From positions 1,674,001 through 1,738,000 of the forward strand of contig NZ_CP021023.1 in NCBI RefSeq assembly GCF_002117005.1: 64,000 nucleotides of DNA, written 5' to 3'. Below the pieces are notes generated by a model that was not told where the DNA came from, searched no databases, and saw only the letters and a list, made by a program, of their open reading frames with translations. The DNA comes from Sedimentisphaera salicampi (GTDB lineage: Bacteria; Planctomycetota; Phycisphaerae; Sedimentisphaerales; Sedimentisphaeraceae). Position numbers and translations under genes: made by a program. Position 1 is the stretch's first letter. Each line of letters starts with the position of its first letter. Below are positions 5,970 to 14,307 of the stretch, in pieces.

Positions 5970-6002
5970 AACAGGAATTTTCCATAACAATTCCTGTTTT
6001 TT
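5970..6002 (+). terminator. Rho-independent terminator
   Basis: A ten-base-pair stem, AACAGGAATT (5970-5979) with AATTCCTGTT (5989-5998), is followed directly by a run of T. It ends the transcript of the FGE-fold gene. Confidence 0.85.
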
Positions 6003-6133
6003 AAACTTGTTTTTCCTGCCTGATAATCATAACATATATTTTCAAGAGCTAATACGCAAATCTGTCTAACTGTTTGCGAGGGAAAAATTAGTCAGAAATG
6101 AAAAAATTTTTTGAATTTTTTCTTAATTTTTCC

Positions 6134-6180
6134 TTGCATATTAACGTAATAACACTTAATATAACGTTATGGAAAACGTT
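6134..6180 (+). promoter_or_regulatory. Promoter with repeated AACGT(T) operator-like elements
   Basis: TTGCAT (6134-6139) and TAATAT (6157-6162) are 17 bases apart. AACGT occurs in the spacer (6143), in the perfect palindrome ATAACGTTAT (6161-6170) that overlaps the -10 edge, and again in AAACGTTA (6174-6181). A symmetric AACGTT core is characteristic of LacI/GalR-family operators, so repression by such a regulator is a plausible inference. No LacI-type gene is in the window. Confidence 0.5.
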
Positions 6181-6203
6181 ACTCTAAGTGAAAGGGGCAC
6201 AAA

Positions 6204-6797
6204 ATGAAAACCAAGGCGTTATTTATGAACCTGACAGCATTTTCAATTATATGTATAATGCTGCCCCAAATTTCCAAAGCCGCCTCTCCAGGATGGGAAA
6301 ACCCGCAGGGGCTTGATTACTCAATGTGCATTTATGCAAAAGTTTTCGATCAGCAGGGCAGCGAAATGGCAGTTGCTCCGGAATCGGCTATTTCTGCTTG
6401 GACATCAGAGGGTACATTGGCCGGCTGCACGTCAGAGCCGGTGGATTCGCCCGCAGGGACAATTTTTACTTTTCAGGTGTTTCACGAACTTTCGATGGCA
6501 GAAAATCTAACTGTGAAGGTTTACGACAGCGAGCTTGATGAGGTGTTTGAAACGGAATACATCTTTGATTTCGCTGCCGGCACCACTCTGGGAGATGTGG
6601 TGAACCCTGTTGTGGTTGTGGCAAAAGCAAATTATAAAACCGGAGATTTCAACGAAGACGGGTTTGTAGATTTGCTTGACCTTGCTGTAATGCAGTCTGA
6701 ATGGCTCTCTGAAACGAGCCTGCAGAGCGACATAAACTCTGACAGCAAAGTAAACATTCAGGATTTCCAGCTTTTCTCTAAGGAATTCGATAATTAA
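6204..6797 (+). CDS. Secreted protein with C-terminal dockerin-like repeat
   Basis: The 197-residue product starts with a signal peptide (residues 1-26, ending SKA). A beta-rich middle region of about 110 residues has no recognisable family. The C-terminal 60 residues carry two calcium-loop repeats, GDFNEDGFVDLLDLAVM and SDINSDSKVNIQDFQLF, in the arrangement of type I dockerin modules. Dockerins attach enzymes to cohesin scaffolds, but in planctomycetes such repeats are common on many secreted proteins and no cohesin is seen here. A strong AAAGGGG ribosome-binding site precedes the ATG. An operator-rich promoter lies directly upstream, so it is probably a single-gene, regulated unit. Confidence 0.8.
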   Translation: MKTKALFMNLTAFSIICIMLPQISKAASPGWENPQGLDYSMCIYAKVFDQQGSEMAVAPESAISAWTSEGTLAGCTSEPVDSPAGTIFTFQVFHELSMAENLTVKVYDSELDEVFETEYIFDFAAGTTLGDVVNPVVVVAKANYKTGDFNEDGFVDLLDLAVMQSEWLSETSLQSDINSDSKVNIQDFQLFSKEFDN

Positions 6798-7112
6798 ATA
6801 ATCACGCTGTTCTTCAGTGAGTAAAAAAACTCCCAAGCGGGCAGCGGAAAATGACAATACTCTATTCAGGCCATATATAACATAAACCCAGAGATATGCA
6901 CCTGAAGAACTTACTCCGAAATCCCCGAAATGATAATTTCAGGGGCAATGGTAACATAAATTCAGGCAAAAGGCAGAAAATTGCTCACAGCCCCTCACGG
7001 ACTCTCGGTGGTGAATAGCCGGCAGCCCGTGGAAACCAGTGCTGGTCGGTTCAGGCAAAAAGCCATTGATACACAGCAGTGTCTGCCCCGCCAATTGAAC
7101 AGCTCACGTCTA
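6798..7112. other. Intergenic stretch before the accessory island
   Basis: No gene is recognised. A short direct repeat (TTCAGGCAAAA near 6962 and 7050) occurs here. GTGCTGGTCGGT at 7039-7050 recurs exactly at 35752-35763. It resembles scrambled remnants rather than functional sequence. Confidence 0.4.
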
Positions 7113-7235
7113 TTATCTCCCGCTTTCGATCTTCATTGATTCGTTGAGCAGAATCCTCATAGTTTCCGCAAATCCATCTTCAATTAACAGTTTCATTAGC
7201 GATTCGAATATGTTACTATACTTGCGGCGGGTCAT
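7113..7235 (-). pseudogene. IS256-like transposase, N-terminal scrap
   Basis: A 40-codon frame from ATG 7235 encodes a segment with the pattern NIFESLMKLLIEDGF, ETMRILLNESMKIE. This matches my memory of the first 40 residues of IS256-family transposases, where NEAMKIER leads into the conserved LGA segment. The frame stops directly after this region and no DDE catalytic domain follows, so it can only be a remnant. It sits 40-60 bases before the hsdM fragment, as expected at the edge of an island built by transposition. The match is short and the call tentative. Confidence 0.45.
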
Positions 7236-7297
7236 TTTTATCGTAAAATCCTTTATCAAACATTAAAAATCCGTTGTTATGTGGAGATCCCAAACAG

Positions 7298-7567
7298 ATG
7301 GCCGATAAACAGGGAAAAGCGAATTTTATCTGGAAAATTGCAGATGATATCCTGAGAGGCTCATTCAAAGCCCATGAGTATGGAGATGTTATACTGCCTT
7401 TCGTGGTTCTTAGAAGGCTGGACTGCGTTCTTGAGCCTACAAAAGATAAGGTTATAGAGACTTACAATCAGTTTAAAGATAAAAATCTGCCTGATATTTC
7501 AGGTATTCTCCTGAACTCAACTATAAACGAAAAATCCCCTAAGGGGCTGAATTTTTATAATACTTAA
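7298..7567 (+). pseudogene. Type I restriction-modification methylase HsdM, N-terminal domain only
   Basis: HsdM proteins methylate adenine in type I restriction sites. This frame encodes only the N-terminal helical HsdM_N domain: ANFIWKIADDILRGSFK, GDVILPFVVLRRLDCVLEPT and the ending FYNT. It stops after about 89 residues, where the family continues into the methyltransferase domain with its NPPF motif. That domain is absent downstream; the reverse transcriptase gene starts 56 bases later. ATG 7298 is chosen as start because it matches the usual beginning of this family. Base composition is less AT-rich than in the following gene. It is most simply a truncated remnant of a type I locus, though a small stand-alone product cannot be excluded. 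Confidence 0.75.
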
Positions 7568-7623
7568 ATATGCTAATAAAAGAATGAAATAAATTTAGTA
7601 AAGTTTTTGAAGGTGGTTTATAG

Positions 7624-10524
7624 ATGCTAAATAGAGAAAAGATTGAGTTAGCCTATAAAATATTAAAACATGAAGTATATTATGACAAAAACGATTTAAT
7701 GCTTAGATGTAAGCTTGCAGAGTTCGAAAACCAAAAAGACTTCCCCAATTTTTGGGAAAATATAATAAATATCTTTAAAAAATTCCAGTACTCCAATGAA
7801 AACACCACAATTACCAAATATTTAGAGAGTATTGATTTTGTAATTATCCCTAAATCCTTTGACGGTTCTAAAAACAATTCTGAGCATGATAAGCCAAACT
7901 ATTTAACCAACATTAGCACCAAAGAAAAATATATAATAGACAAAGTTAATTATCATATTAAAGCTCCAGTTGAGCTGCATATTATTTCAACTTTATGGTG
8001 TATGTATGCAGGTGTATTACTTGATAAAGAGTTTTCTGATAAGTGCTATGGCTACAGAATCAATCCTAATTTATATTGCGACAATAATGAAACAGGTAAT
8101 CTATTTAAATTTTACCCTGAACAATACAGTGGTTGGAGAGATAACGGCTTAAAAAAAGCAAAAAAACTTTTAAACTCAAAAGAAGATGTAGCCATCTTAG
8201 CACTAGATATTGAACAATTTTATTATTCTATTGAATTCAATTTTGACAAATTAAAGAATTGTCTGAATGACAAACGTAACGATAAGGATTCTAAAGATGA
8301 AGATATTAGTATTGCAATTAAATTAACGGAAATTATTGAAGTTATATGCAAAAGATACAATTCCAAAATAAAGCATCTAAAAGAACTCACTCACCCTTGT
8401 ACTTCGAATAACACTCTTCCTCTTGGAATGAACTTTTCACCTATTCTCGCAAATTGGTTTATTAGTGATTTTGACAAAGCAATTGAGAAAAAAATTAATC
8501 CTGAATATTACGGCCGCTATGTTGATGATATGTTAATAGTGCTGGCTAATCCAACTATCAATGAAAAAGATTCTTTCAAAAGCTTCGTCCATGATTATTT
8601 TATTAAAACGGATATATTAGCTGAAAAGGACTCTAAATACGTCTTTAAGGATAATCACAACCTTCGAATTAATGATAAGAAAGTTCTTTTGCAACACTTT
8701 AGTAAGGATCATTCCCAAGCAAGCCTTGAAAAATTTGTAAATAAAATAAAACAAAACAGCAGTGAATTCAGATATCTCCCTGAGGATGACATTGACGAAA
8801 AATTTGATGAGGTGGCGTATGATTTACTTTATAAGGGCTCACCTAATAAATTATCAAATGTTATTGGTATTACCGAAAACAAATATGAAATGGCGAAATT
8901 CCTGGGATGTAAAATTTCACTACTTATCCACTCTCACCATAAGCCCGATTTTCAAAGCAATTCTGAATTGTTGTTTTTTTTCTCAGGAAAAACAGGATTG
9001 GAATATTTTTCTTTATGGGAAAGATGCTTAACGTATTTGATTGTAAGCAAATCATATAAAAACGCTGAAACCCTCATCAATAATTTAATTAAAAGTGTCG
9101 AAAAAGTAACTTATATAAATGACAGTCTTGAAAATGCGAGAATCTCAGAACAACTAAAAACCTTTTTCAATAATCATATAGTTTATTCTATAGTAATACC
9201 TTTGGCATTAAAGAATTATATCCCTGAGTATGTGCAGAAAACCCTTTACAAAATATTTGATGAGCAGCGTATTTTAAGAAATGTCAAAGATATTCGAAAA
9301 GCTAATCTTATTCGCCATAATTACATTTCATTGCCTTTGACCAACTATACTGACTATAAAAATGACTATACCGAATTTAACATTCTTAATGTTTCAAAGT
9401 GTAAATTTAAAGACAAAAAAATAGCTTTATCCCCTCGTTTTATACACATGGATGAATTTTTAATTTATAGTTATTATACAAACCCTACCGAAGTAGAACC
9501 AGACAAATTACTTGAGAAATATAATAAAATAGTAGGCCAATTTCTTCAGCCAACTAATTATGGCGATTTATCTTGCAAGATAGAGAACCGTTATTGTGGT
9601 AAAAATGATAAAGAGAAATGTCCGAAAGATGGCTCATTTTGGGATATAAAAGTTAACAAGGAAAAGCAAAAATTTAAGGAAAAAATTAAAGTTGGGATTG
9701 TTAACCTTAAAGTAAAAGATTCTGACATTGAGGCATCTTATAAAAACAAACCAGCAATTTCTATAGCAAGACATCAAGAATTGAATGCGACTCTTAACCT
9801 TGCAACTAGGGAGAATTGCGATTTACTGATAATGCCTGAATTATCGGTCCCATTTCGTTGGTTTCAAGACTTAATTTACTATTCCAAAAAAAGGCAAATT
9901 GGTCTTATATTAGGTTTAGAATATTTTGTAGATAAAGGATATGCCTATAATTATTTAGCAACAATATTGCCATATATTGACTCCAAAAAAAGAAAATATT
10001 GCTATCCAAACTTGAGACTCAAAAAACATTATGCTTACAAAGAAACTGAATTATTAAAAGGGAATCGTTTAAATATTCCACCGGTGGAAAATGAAAGCTA
10101 TTCAAAGTTTGAATGGCAAGGTCTTCATTTTTGTTCATATAACTGTTTTGAATTAGCAGATATTCATCACCGCTCAATGTTTAAATCAATGGTTGATTTA
10201 GTAGTGGCCTGTGAATATAACAAAGATGTTTCGTATTTCTCGAATATTGCAGAATCAGTTTCAAGAGACCTGCATTGCTATTATATTCAAGTCAATAGTT
10301 CAAATTACGGAGACTCAAGAATAGTAAGCCCTTCTAAAAAAGACTTTATGGATGTTGTAAAGGTTAAAGGTGGAGAAAACACTACTATATTGACGGCTAC
10401 TCTGGATATTAAAGCGCTAAGAGAACACCAACATAAAACATATTCATTACAAAAAAATTCTGAGTTTGGGTTTAAACCAACTCCACCAAATTATGATGTT
10501 GATATTCTTGAAAAAAGGAGGTAA
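7624..10524 (+). CDS. Reverse transcriptase-nitrilase fusion (DRT type 1 / UG-family defence RT)
   Basis: The 966-residue protein joins two enzymes. The N-terminal reverse transcriptase (about residues 100-370) shows motif A LDIEQFYYSI with D195, a motif B of LPLGMNFSPILAN in which the usual PQG is PLG, and motif C YVDD (299-302). A helical middle of about 320 residues is unassigned. The C-terminal nitrilase-fold domain (about 690-950) has the expected Glu-Lys-Cys triad: E739 in MPEL, K801 (or K800) in RLKKHY, and C841 in NCFEL. RT-nitrilase fusions are known from the Unknown Group RTs (UG1, UG5) that act as antiphage DRT systems; role here is by analogy. GAAGGTGG lies upstream of ATG 7624. 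The gene is far richer in A/T than its neighbours, a sign of transfer, and stands beside hsdM and transposase remnants. No maturase domain or intron structure is seen, so it is not a group II intron RT. Confidence 0.9.
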   Translation: MLNREKIELAYKILKHEVYYDKNDLMLRCKLAEFENQKDFPNFWENIINIFKKFQYSNENTTITKYLESIDFVIIPKSFDGSKNNSEHDKPNYLTNISTKEKYIIDKVNYHIKAPVELHIISTLWCMYAGVLLDKEFSDKCYGYRINPNLYCDNNETGNLFKFYPEQYSGWRDNGLKKAKKLLNSKEDVAILALDIEQFYYSIEFNFDKLKNCLNDKRNDKDSKDEDISIAIKLTEIIEVICKRYNSKIKHLKELTHPCTSNNTLPLGMNFSPILANWFISDFDKAIEKKINPEYYGRYVDDMLIVLANPTINEKDSFKSFVHDYFIKTDILAEKDSKYVFKDNHNLRINDKKVLLQHFSKDHSQASLEKFVNKIKQNSSEFRYLPEDDIDEKFDEVAYDLLYKGSPNKLSNVIGITENKYEMAKFLGCKISLLIHSHHKPDFQSNSELLFFFSGKTGLEYFSLWERCLTYLIVSKSYKNAETLINNLIKSVEKVTYINDSLENARISEQLKTFFNNHIVYSIVIPLALKNYIPEYVQKTLYKIFDEQRILRNVKDIRKANLIRHNYISLPLTNYTDYKNDYTEFNILNVSKCKFKDKKIALSPRFIHMDEFLIYSYYTNPTEVEPDKLLEKYNKIVGQFLQPTNYGDLSCKIENRYCGKNDKEKCPKDGSFWDIKVNKEKQKFKEKIKVGIVNLKVKDSDIEASYKNKPAISIARHQELNATLNLATRENCDLLIMPELSVPFRWFQDLIYYSKKRQIGLILGLEYFVDKGYAYNYLATILPYIDSKKRKYCYPNLRLKKHYAYKETELLKGNRLNIPPVENESYSKFEWQGLHFCSYNCFELADIHHRSMFKSMVDLVVACEYNKDVSYFSNIAESVSRDLHCYYIQVNSSNYGDSRIVSPSKKDFMDVVKVKGGENTTILTATLDIKALREHQHKTYSLQKNSEFGFKPTPPNYDVDILEKRR

Positions 10525-10648
10525 AAAAGTTTACTGCCTAATTGCAAAAATACTACTATTAAAAATGTCCATATCTCTTCCGGAAGAAGCGGCAGTTACA
10601 AGCTAAAAAGGCAAAGTTAACAAGATAACTAAATAAACTTAATCACCA

Positions 10649-10674
10649 AGAGAAGCCCCGATTGAGGCTTCTCT
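10649..10674. terminator. Perfect hairpin between convergent genes
   Basis: AGAGAAGCC (10649-10657) pairs with GGCTTCTCT (10666-10674) around an eight-base loop. It lies between the converging RT-nitrilase and protease genes. T-runs are weak on both sides, so termination is plausible but not certain. Confidence 0.5.
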
Positions 10675-10694
10675 CAGCGGTTTTAGATTCGTTT

Positions 10695-12092
10695 TCAGAT
10701 AGCCAGTTTTTCGGATACGCCGGCGGATGGGTCTGCCTTCACCTCGGCGATATACTGCCGTGAGATCTGGCGATTCCCGAACAGGGCGATTCTGAGGATG
10801 TGCATTTCCACGGTCTGGCCGGAGCTGATCTCTTCCATTGCGAGCGAGAATTCCTTCATATTGGTAACCGGCGTACCATCTATCTGCAGCACAATATCAC
10901 CTTTTTTGAGCCCGGCCTTTGCGGCGTTTCCCTCGGGGCTTAGATCTTCGATAATCATAACGGGGTATTCGCTCTGGAAGCCGAAATTTTGTGCAATTTT
11001 GCTGTCCAGCTCTGAGATTTCCATCTGGAAAAACCGCTCAGCGAGCTTTCCGCCGTCTGGGATTGGCCTTGGCTGGAGGCTCAGCTCCACTGCATACTGA
11101 GCAGCGGTGTCTCTGCGGACGCAGGTAAGCCGGATTTTCTCGCCGATATCCTTATTCATCATCTTCACATAGAAATCGATAAATCCGCTCACCTTCTTAT
11201 CGTCTATTTCGGTGATAATATCGCCCTGCTGAACGCCCTTCTTCGAAGCGGGGCTGTCTTCAAACACCTTATCCACCTTCAGGCCGCTTTTATCCTTGAG
11301 GCAGCCCATTCTCCCAATCACGAGCCCCATCTTCACGCGTCTCATATTCTCCGGCAGGAGCATATCGGCCAGCCCGCCGGCCACAGTGTCCACTGGAATC
11401 GCAAATCCGATATTCTGAGCCTCGGCCCTGATTGCGGTAGTAACGCCGATGAGCTCTCCGTTTATGTTCAGTACAGGCCCGCCGGAATTGCCCGGGTTAA
11501 TGGCGGCGGATGTCTGGATAAGGCCGCGCAGCCAAAAGCCCTCTCGAACCTTGATGTTCCTGCCCTTAGCGCTGACAATCCCCTCAGTAACCGAGCTTGA
11601 GAACCCGAACGGATTGCCAACTGCTATCACAGTTTCGCCTATCATTAAATCGCAGCTCTCGCCCATCTTTATGGCCTTGAACGTCTCTTCCTCGGATTGT
11701 ATCTTCAGAAAGGCGATGTCTTTCTTTTCGTCGGCGCTGATGATCTCTGCCTCGTATTCCTTGCCGTCGGCGAATGTGAGCATCACCTTTTCCTGCCCCT
11801 TCACCACGTGGGCATTTGTAACAACGTATCCATCCTGATGCACCACAAATCCGCTGCCGAGGTCGTGCTTTTTCTCTTCGTATTCCCGCGGGGCAAACCT
11901 CGGGCCGAAGAAATCGAAAATATCGCCCGAGCCCCTGCGCGGCCTGGCAACGGTATGAAAGCCTGAGATATTGACAATCGAATCCTTAGCGGATTTATAC
12001 GCCTCAACCACCGGCGTTACGCGGTCGTAGTTTTCTGCCGTGCAAACTGCTGCCAGCATAACTGCGCAGAGCGTTATTACCTTAATCTTCAT
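10695..12092 (-). CDS. HtrA/Deg-type periplasmic serine protease with two PDZ domains
   Basis: Deg proteases degrade or refold damaged envelope proteins. From ATG 12092 the protein has 465 residues with a signal peptide (1-19), a trypsin-like domain with H95 (TNAHVV), D125 (KKDIAFLK) and S203 (GNSGGP), and two PDZ domains (about 265-350 and 375-450). The start at 12092 is preferred over an upstream frame start because GGAG lies at good distance and a signal peptide follows at once. The Q-linker present in DegP between signal and protease is replaced by a short RRGSGD segment. It is a single gene, convergent with the RT-nitrilase gene and divergent from gph. Confidence 0.92.
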   Translation of the reverse strand: MKIKVITLCAVMLAAVCTAENYDRVTPVVEAYKSAKDSIVNISGFHTVARPRRGSGDIFDFFGPRFAPREYEEKKHDLGSGFVVHQDGYVVTNAHVVKGQEKVMLTFADGKEYEAEIISADEKKDIAFLKIQSEEETFKAIKMGESCDLMIGETVIAVGNPFGFSSSVTEGIVSAKGRNIKVREGFWLRGLIQTSAAINPGNSGGPVLNINGELIGVTTAIRAEAQNIGFAIPVDTVAGGLADMLLPENMRRVKMGLVIGRMGCLKDKSGLKVDKVFEDSPASKKGVQQGDIITEIDDKKVSGFIDFYVKMMNKDIGEKIRLTCVRRDTAAQYAVELSLQPRPIPDGGKLAERFFQMEISELDSKIAQNFGFQSEYPVMIIEDLSPEGNAAKAGLKKGDIVLQIDGTPVTNMKEFSLAMEEISSGQTVEMHILRIALFGNRQISRQYIAEVKADPSAGVSEKLAI

Positions 12093-12929: not shown

Positions 12930-13040
12930 AGCCCGCCGAAGGCGGATTCATGCGTAGCTCGGTTTAAAGATTAGTTTCGTGAAACCGCTGAGTAATACTA
13001 ACGACAATCAGAGCCGCACGTGGAGTCCGCCGCAGGCGGA
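12930..13040 (+). repeat. Dispersed repeat, copy 1
   Basis: The segment from 12949 (CATGCGTAGCTCGGTTTAAA) to about 13023 matches the reverse complement of 50541-50611 at roughly 85% by eye, including AGTAATACTAA-like and GACAATCAGAGCC cores. It is flanked by GC-rich palindromes at 12932-12946 and TCCGCCGCAGGCGGA at 13026-13040. The second palindrome is exactly the reverse complement of 50275-50289. No coding capacity is seen. Confidence 0.75.
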
Positions 13041-13077
13041 GAACAAGCGGACAGATTCGGCATTAAAAAGCTTTGCC
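13041..13077 (+). repeat. Short dispersed repeats after copy 1
   Basis: GAACAAGCGGACAGATT at 13041-13057 repeats the end of gph (12895-12911) with one mismatch of 17. AGATTCGGCATTAAAAAGC and the following bases to 13077 match the reverse complement of 35541-35566 with few differences. Confidence 0.65.
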
Positions 13078-13123
13078 TAAAAATATTGTCGCGCACTACA
13101 AACTTGTATCGTAATCATTTCGC

Positions 13124-13151
13124 TTGAGCGGAGAAATGTTTATAATATAAT
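13124..13151 (+). promoter_or_regulatory. Putative promoter of ychF-rsmG-xerD
   Basis: TTGAGC (13124-13129) and TATAAT (13146-13151) are 16 bases apart and lie 56 bases before the ychF start codon. Confidence 0.5.
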
Positions 13152-13206
13152 GCCTGCTTCACACGAAAATGTTATCGAATTGTACAGAATTTAACAGAGA
13201 AAGTTT

Positions 13207-14307
13207 ATGTCCTTAAGCATAGGTATTGTAGGTCTGCCGAACGTAGGCAAGAGCACATTATTCAACGCCCTGACAAAGGCGCAGAACGCAGAATCACAGA
13301 ACTATCCGTTCTGCACGATCGAGCCGAACAAGGCGATTGTGCCGGTGCCGGATAAACGCCTCTACAAGCTGGCAGAGCTTGTGAGCCCCAAGAAGGTTAC
13401 GCCTGCAACGATAGAGTTTGTCGATATTGCCGGCCTTGTGGAAGGGGCGAGCAAGGGCGAGGGACTTGGGAACAAGTTTCTCGGGAACATCCGCCAGACC
13501 TCCGCTATTGTGCATGTTGTGCGGTGCTTCAAGGATGAGAATGTTGTGCACGTTTCCGCTGAGCCGAACCCGAAGCGGGACGTTGAAACGATAGAAACAG
13601 AGCTTGCGCTAGCGGATTTGGAGCAGCTTGAAAGAAAGATCGAAAGGCTTGAAAAACAGGTTAAGGCGGATAAAAAACTCGCTTCCACTCTCACTCTTGC
13701 CGGCAGGCTCAAAGAGCATCTTGAAGAGGGCAGGCCCGTAAATTCATTCGAGCAGGCCGATTCTGAGGCGTTTGAGAACTTCGTTCAGGAGATGGGCTTT
13801 ATAACTGCCAAAACGGTTATTTTTGCTGCGAATGTGGATGAGCAGGGTCTCACAGAAGACAACGAATACGCTAAGGCTCTCGGCGAGATCGCTGAAAACC
13901 GCGGCGCAGAGCTAGTGAAGATATGCGCAAAGCTTGAGGAGGATATGGTGGATATGACAGACGAGGAGAGGGGCGAATTTCTCGAGTCTGCGGGAGTGGA
14001 AGAAAGCGGGCTTGAAAAGGTAATCCACCACGGTTTTGATGCGCTAGGCCTTATGAGCTACTTCACAGCAGGCCCGAAAGAGGTTCGGGCATGGACCATC
14101 AAAAAGGGCTGGACAGCCCCTCAGGCAGCGGGCGTGATTCATACCGATTTCGAGAGAGGCTTTATCAGGGCGGAGGTTATCCCGTACGAGGATTATATTC
14201 ACTTCGGCAGCGAAAATGCGGCTAAGGAGGCTGGGAAAATGGCCGCAAAAGGCAAAGCCTACGTGGTAAACGACGGGGATGTTGTGAACTTCCTCTTCAA
14301 CGTATAA
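13207..14307 (+). CDS. ychF: Ribosome-binding ATPase YchF
   Basis: YchF/EngD is a conserved Obg-like P-loop ATPase linked to ribosomes and redox stress. The 366 residues begin with the P-loop GLPNVGKST (9-17), followed by the DIAGLVEGASKGEGLGN switch region near residue 75. A coiled-coil insertion (about 130-180) and the C-terminal TGS-like domain (FTAGPKEVRAWT onward) complete the fold. Guanine specificity NKxD is replaced by the NVDE sequence, consistent with ATP preference in this family. It is the first gene of an apparent operon with rsmG and xerD. Confidence 0.95.
   Translation: MSLSIGIVGLPNVGKSTLFNALTKAQNAESQNYPFCTIEPNKAIVPVPDKRLYKLAELVSPKKVTPATIEFVDIAGLVEGASKGEGLGNKFLGNIRQTSAIVHVVRCFKDENVVHVSAEPNPKRDVETIETELALADLEQLERKIERLEKQVKADKKLASTLTLAGRLKEHLEEGRPVNSFEQADSEAFENFVQEMGFITAKTVIFAANVDEQGLTEDNEYAKALGEIAENRGAELVKICAKLEEDMVDMTDEERGEFLESAGVEESGLEKVIHHGFDALGLMSYFTAGPKEVRAWTIKKGWTAPQAAGVIHTDFERGFIRAEVIPYEDYIHFGSENAAKEAGKMAAKGKAYVVNDGDVVNFLFNV

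Follow-up and report, generated by a model that had tools for sequence, protein, structure and literature searches.

The DNA analysed here, referred to below as the window, is a 64,000-nt stretch of the Sedimentisphaera salicampi genome (assembly GCF_002117005.1, contig NZ_CP021023.1, positions 1,674,001-1,738,000 of the forward strand). It contains an intact reverse transcriptase (RT)-nitrilase gene of the UG5 type lying directly downstream of a truncated hsdM gene, and the features of the locus are as follows:

6803..10649, no strand: lineage-specific island of 3.85 kb at a synteny breakpoint, flanked by genes for a dockerin protein and an htrA-like protein
7117..7235, minus strand: fragment of about 40 codons (MTRRKYSNIFESLMKLL...), a candidate decayed transposase N-terminus
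7298..7567, plus strand: truncated hsdM, coding for the ~83 N-terminal residues of a type I methyltransferase (Pfam HsdM_N, 1.5e-17; PADLOC MTase_I, 4e-26)
7610..7616, plus strand: Shine-Dalgarno-like sequence AAGGTGG, 7 nt 5' of the ATG
7624..10524, plus strand: intact UG5-type RT-nitrilase gene, 966 aa (open frame; PADLOC RT_UG5-nitrilase)
7930..8703, plus strand: RT palm and fingers, about residues 103-360, with the D195 codon at 8206-8208 and the YVDD codons at 8518-8529
8719..9663, plus strand: predicted helical middle domain, about residues 366-680 (AlphaFold2 helices; positional counterpart of the DRT1 alpha-helical repeat domain)
8761..8763, plus strand: codon of Ser380, the proposed DNA-priming serine and counterpart of DRT1 S402 (conservation, profile alignment, helix end)
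9673..10458, plus strand: nitrilase-superfamily domain, about residues 684-945 (fold match; tetrad invariant or nearly so)
9838-9840, 10021-10023, 10042-10044 and 10144-10146, plus strand: nitrilase tetrad codons E739, K800, E807 and C841, respectively
10471..10494, plus strand: F-K-P-T-P-P-N-Y lid motif at residues 950-957, corresponding to DRT1 K1219-F1225 (motif count, hhalign)
10644..10679, minus strand: hairpin resembling a strong terminator, right edge

The RT-nitrilase is present as a single copy in the 3.19-Mb, single-contig genome, and its downstream neighbour is an htrA-like protease gene on the opposite strand. The initial annotation had read 7624-10524 as one intact 966-residue frame with an RT and a C-terminal nitrilase, and had picked out D195, YVDD at 299-302 and a PLG-type motif B. 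The frame is indeed open, and in an alignment of 56 relatives D195 and Y299-V300-D301-D302 are invariant, while the proline and glycine of the motif B region (P266-L267-G268) are each present in 54. The catalytic triad proposed for the nitrilase, E739/K801/C841, needs one correction and one addition: E739 (56/56) and C841 (55/56, the sole exception being Ser) are retained, but K801 is a lysine in only four of the 56, the true lysine being K800 (56/56), and the triad omitted the fourth tetrad residue, E807 (56/56). Pfam RVT_1 matches the protein above the Pfam cut-off (7e-9), and the CN_hydrolase match is below significance. Over residues 2-962 the protein scores 796 bits with the PADLOC RT_UG5-nitrilase model (E=1.3e-239), a result that, together with the RVT_1 match, excludes a chance similarity.

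The same model comparisons place the protein within the RT families. The fusion had been assigned broadly to the UG1/UG5 type, which agrees with the RT_UG5-nitrilase score and the nitrilase fold described below, and more narrowly to a DRT type 1-like system, which does not: the UG1 model Drt1a scores 96 bits against 796 for UG5. Other PADLOC models give 118 bits (RTasNitrilase) and 58 bits (Drt3a), and RT_UG5_small, from the same UG group without the nitrilase, gives 514 bits. The CRISPR, group II, retron, DGR and other UG models reach at most about 35 bits, and a retron, DGR or group II intron RT is thereby ruled out. Placement on a UG RT tree, suggested in the initial annotation, points the same way. 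In this tree of the RT region (88 UG5-side rows and six UG1 rows; a quick tree with SH-aLRT support only), the UG1 rows are split off by one branch with support 88 and the window RT falls on the UG5 side, several inner branches around it being weak (82-91). Its nearest relatives over the RT region, to which it is at most 39% identical, belong to the archaea, Verrucomicrobiota, Pseudomonadota and Fibrobacterota; this spread over archaea and several bacterial phyla indicates that the gene moves widely. A single-sequence scan found no close relatives of the RT-nitrilase, relatives being recovered only after a scan with a four-sequence alignment, and the phage records contain no match to it. The suggestion of a new subgroup is unsupported, since the protein fits the known UG5-nitrilase model even though its nearest RT-region relative is only 39% identical; the window gene is a divergent member of the known UG5-nitrilase group, not a new group.

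The AlphaFold2 model of the full-length protein is confident, with a pLDDT of 87 and a pTM of 0.88. In Foldseek its N-terminal part is matched by RTs, among them DRT9, DRT4, AbiK and G2L4, and its C-terminal part by solved nitrilases and amidases (2e-8), so the similarity to the nitrilase fold, on which the initial annotation had made its reading depend, is retained. The DRT1 structure 9YFD is absent among the fold-search matches listed (library to April 2026). The middle of about 320 residues, previously left unassigned, is predicted to be all-helical. Because a profile of UG5 proteins aligns collinearly from end to end with six UG1 proteins (hhalign, probability 100, E=7e-52), this stretch falls where the cryo-EM structure of DRT1 has its alpha-helical repeat domain (PMC13275509). 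With low confidence, on the basis of position and secondary structure, the two may thus correspond; alignment confidence is low inside the middle stretch, and the domain folded alone gives a low-confidence model with no significant match in a fold search of the PDB. In one UG5 branch (L070-L073, L077-L079, L086, L092, L101 and L103) the RT (~650 aa) and the nitrilase (~310 aa) are encoded separately, the two genes overlapping by 4 nt or almost doing so, and this natural fission marks the domain boundary near residues 650-680 of the window protein. G088, one genome of the phylum, has a UG5-nitrilase gene that is apparently broken and dispersed: the RT half (L039 8248-10083, model positions 14-569) and the nitrilase half (L038 about 7137-9749, positions 580-904, with a transposase inside it) are far apart, at about 44 kb and 3.94 Mb of a 4.4-Mb contig.

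DRT1 primes template-free DNA synthesis on Ser402, a residue reported as not conserved in other class 3 DRTs (PMC13275509). Position 380 of the window protein is nevertheless a Ser in 55 of 56 UG5 relatives and a Thr in the remaining one, and the column is a Ser in 84 of the 88 rows of the RT-region tree alignment. None of the other Ser/Thr residues of the protein, 103 in all with this one, is as well conserved, and within residues 362-690 it is the top column, while its neighbours vary (E/A/Q, F/M, R/W/N). Ser380 lies 78 residues after D302, and S402 lies 77 after D325 in DRT1; across UG5 the Asp-to-serine distance ranges from 77 to 149, with the serine staying at the helix end. The profile-profile alignment pairs it with the consensus serine of UG1, which also ends this helix and is two residues from the S402 counterpart. 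A serine is present there in 6/6 UG1 sequences, and two residues later in L200 and DRT1 (DRT1 as a fragment), so the Ser380-S402 match holds only to within two residues, UG1 itself being shifted at this point. The AlphaFold2 helix 366-380 stops at Ser380 and is followed by a low-pLDDT loop, which fits the location of S402 in a segment of DRT1, 382-478, that is not resolved (PMC13275509). Taken together, the conservation, helix end, spacing, UG1 profile alignment and adjoining loop make Ser380 a rather good candidate for the priming residue of UG5 RT-nitrilases, with a role as a helix cap being a possible alternative. Ser380 thus provides a single-residue prediction of where DNA synthesis starts in UG5 enzymes, one that contrasts with the published report of non-conservation outside DRT1.

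A second prediction concerns K951 in the C-terminal lid. In DRT1 the lid is swapped, and the K1219A and A1223F substitutions abolish defence (PMC13275509). The UG5 motif aligns with DRT1 K1219-F1225 in the hhalign comparison, and the pattern KxxP[PA]x[FYW] occurs in the last 60 residues of 46 of 56 UG5 proteins, compared with 8 of 2545 background windows.

Much of the relevant biology is known from relatives. A UG5 RT with a C-terminal nitrilase, carried by a P4 satellite together with a small membrane protein, protects Escherichia coli from phage, these satellite systems being described as RT-nitrilase + 1TM (PMC9122126). Purified DRT5S and DRT5L, presumably the small and large UG5 proteins judging from their names and class rather than from sequence, make protein-linked DNA without a template; DRT1, whose structure (9yfd) is matched by the window protein in a phmmer search (4e-14), forms DNA-driven filaments and requires its nitrilase for abortive infection (PMC13275509). 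UG5-nitrilase defence and class 3 DRT biochemistry are therefore already published, and the window copy adds another member. The initial annotation's reading of an anti-phage gene is probably right. The window gene is of interest as a divergent example, without a partner gene, of this defence family.

The initial annotation overlooked the hsdM stump that immediately precedes the RT gene. It comprises the residues from M9 onwards of its ORF, covers positions 3-83 of the 661 in the MTase_I profile, and ends 57 bp 5' of the RT start codon. It is the only occurrence of HsdM_N or N6_Mtase in the genome, and removal of the hsd genes to another site was considered and rejected, there being none intact elsewhere in the genome. 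Homology to a genome of the same genus (G325) ends at 6802 on the left and restarts at 10650 on the right, so that the stump and the RT form one lineage-specific island; the island flanks are not adjacent in that genome, lying 1 Mb apart. In another member of the phylum (G032, L037) the order is hsdM-Fic-hsdS-hsdR-RT-nitrilase with an hsdR-RT gap of 13 bp, and an operon of this kind would acquire exactly the window arrangement if a single deletion took out everything between about codon 83 of hsdM and the end of hsdR. We infer that the locus probably once belonged to a type I restriction-modification (RM) operon from which the rest of hsdM, hsdS and hsdR were deleted; no intermediate of such a deletion was found. 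Elsewhere in the island, the fragment at 7117-7235 has no Pfam match and is possibly a decayed transposase N-terminus, and a 125-bp stretch at 6963-7087 recurs with 80% identity elsewhere in the genome, at G000:C1:800303-800428.

The RT coding sequence has a GC content of 30.2% compared with 47.6% for the window, in accord with the earlier description of an AT-rich island. We considered whether this difference points to separate origins of the RT and the hsdM stump and rejected that view. In all 14 of the 14 relatives linked to RM genes, the GC content of the UG5 RT gene is below that of its own locus, by about 2-15 points, and in 13 of 14 it is also below that of the hsd genes detected there, the exception being L053, in which hsdS is slightly lower. 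The AT-richness is therefore a property of the gene family and no proof of a different origin.

A truncated operon at a synteny breakpoint also raises the question of whether the RT-nitrilase is itself a decaying relic, its frame still open but the gene not expressed or useful since the RM operon was deleted. The hsdM stump with no intact hsd gene elsewhere in the genome would fit this, as would the lack of a transmembrane (TM) partner and of any other defence gene among the window ORFs tested. However, 966 codons at 30% GC have stayed free of stops, the catalytic residues, the Ser380 candidate and the lid are all intact, and a good ribosome-binding site precedes the gene, and we regard decay as improbable.

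The association with RM genes extends beyond this locus. Among 80 UG5 loci collected by scanning bacterial and archaeal genomes, with 1.15 Mb of flanking sequence in total, an hsd gene is present in the flank of 20, and within 400 bp on the same strand in 13. On a rough, uncontrolled estimate that puts the density of type I operons well below one per Mb, fewer than one would be expected in this much flank. The commonest complete order places the RT between hsdS and hsdR, as hsdM-hsdS-RT-hsdR (L049 and L053) or hsdM-hsdS-RT-nitrilase-hsdR (L078, L079, L086 and L092), with 4-nt overlaps in several of these RM-embedded operons, and on the RT-region tree the link to RM must have been gained or lost five times or more. 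The hsdS-hsdR slot is the one occupied by the anticodon nuclease PrrC, in hsdM-hsdS-prrC-hsdR (PMC3014915). One possible reading is a guard function. UG5 RT-nitrilases situated between hsdS and hsdR would be silenced by, or would monitor, the type I enzyme: DNA attached to the invariant serine would keep a nitrilase killer dormant, and a phage that disarmed Hsd would release it, killing the cell as restriction was blocked. The window copy, which has only an hsdM stump where relatives have complete hsd operons, would then be a guard whose partner system is gone and which is now either re-wired or dormant at all times.

The recurrence and placement of the linkage speak for such a recurrent type I guard, which would parallel PrrC while being chemically unrelated to it; compared with PrrC in EcoprrI, the UG5 relatives fill the same operon slot, but the protein and its enzymology are different and the window copy has no RM genes around it beyond the stump. 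On the other hand, three quarters of the 80 loci have no hsd gene in the flank examined, the P4-satellite UG5-nitrilase defends without RM (PMC9122126), and the unrelated defence gene DarTG2 uses the same hsdS-hsdR slot (PMC12255303), which may simply be a favoured landing site. We therefore view the guard as an unlikely explanation, for the relatives and for the window copy alike, although the repeated physical link between UG5 RTs and type I operons makes it directly testable. The RT of L104 (771-10509), which is close to that of the window on the tree, lies downstream of genes for an SNF2/PLD helicase and AbiD and a type IIG/HsdM-kind methylase gene pair, and restriction linkage is therefore wider than classical type I.

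The reading we favour, and think likely, is that the window gene is a single-gene class 3 (UG5-nitrilase) abortive-infection DRT that works like DRT1 and was left behind by deletion of an RM operon. We infer its mechanism from that of its relatives, as we do priming at Ser380 and the origin by deletion. In a resting cell the RT would add dNTPs to its own Ser380 without a template, and the attached DNA would drive assembly of an inactive tetramer or filament, in which the swapped C-terminal lid (K951...Y957) would close the nitrilase pockets. Activity associated with phage replication would disturb the DNA adduct or the filament and free the nitrilase (C841/E739/K800/E807), which would then consume an essential metabolite, such that the infected cell would halt before phage release.

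A different type of RT chemistry, in which synthesis is templated by an associated ncRNA as in DRT2, DRT9, DRT10 or retrons, has in its favour the YVDD-containing RT domain and the fold similarity to DRT9 and DRT4 structures. We consider it very improbable, as the gap between the hsdM stump and the RT is only 57 bp, the 4-nt overlaps in RM-embedded relatives leave no space for an upstream ncRNA, and class 3 enzymes synthesize DNA template-free and RNase-resistantly (PMC13275509). An Rfam scan of 6000-11000 for an ncRNA partner, intron or retron RNA gave nothing significant, and the one match, being sub-threshold (E=0.44), was rejected as a partner.

Compared with other UG5-nitrilase RTs, including those of P4 satellites, the window protein has the same domain order, catalytic residues and C-terminal lid, but it lies behind an hsdM stump, and its overall identity with the examples from plasmids and G032 is only 19-33%. 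With DRT type 1 (UG1, 9YFD) it shares the RT-helical-nitrilase order, the tetrad, the C-terminal K..P[PA] lid and a serine that ends the helix following the RT domain, 76-78 residues past the catalytic Asp in the closest cases; it differs in length, the 1229-aa DRT1 having about 260 residues more, mostly in the helical domain, and in its affiliation with UG5 on the tree and by model score.

The absence of a TM partner gene beside the window RT-nitrilase counts against the DRT1-like single-gene reading. A Grimontia relative has a Drt1b/RTasTM gene, and in L043 (UG5) the small gene directly downstream (12979-13455) is identified as Drt1b/RTasTM by PADLOC. Genes of similar size lie behind UG1 RTs (L200 4731-5153, L205 6675-7127 and L206 6831-7337), the products being 140-170 aa overall. 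A DEDDh/3'-5' exonuclease gene follows the RT-nitrilase in a UG5 locus of Methanolinea (L041 13100-13681) and in a UG1 locus on a Leptospira plasmid (L201 3516-4232), and its product could trim or sense the DNA adduct.
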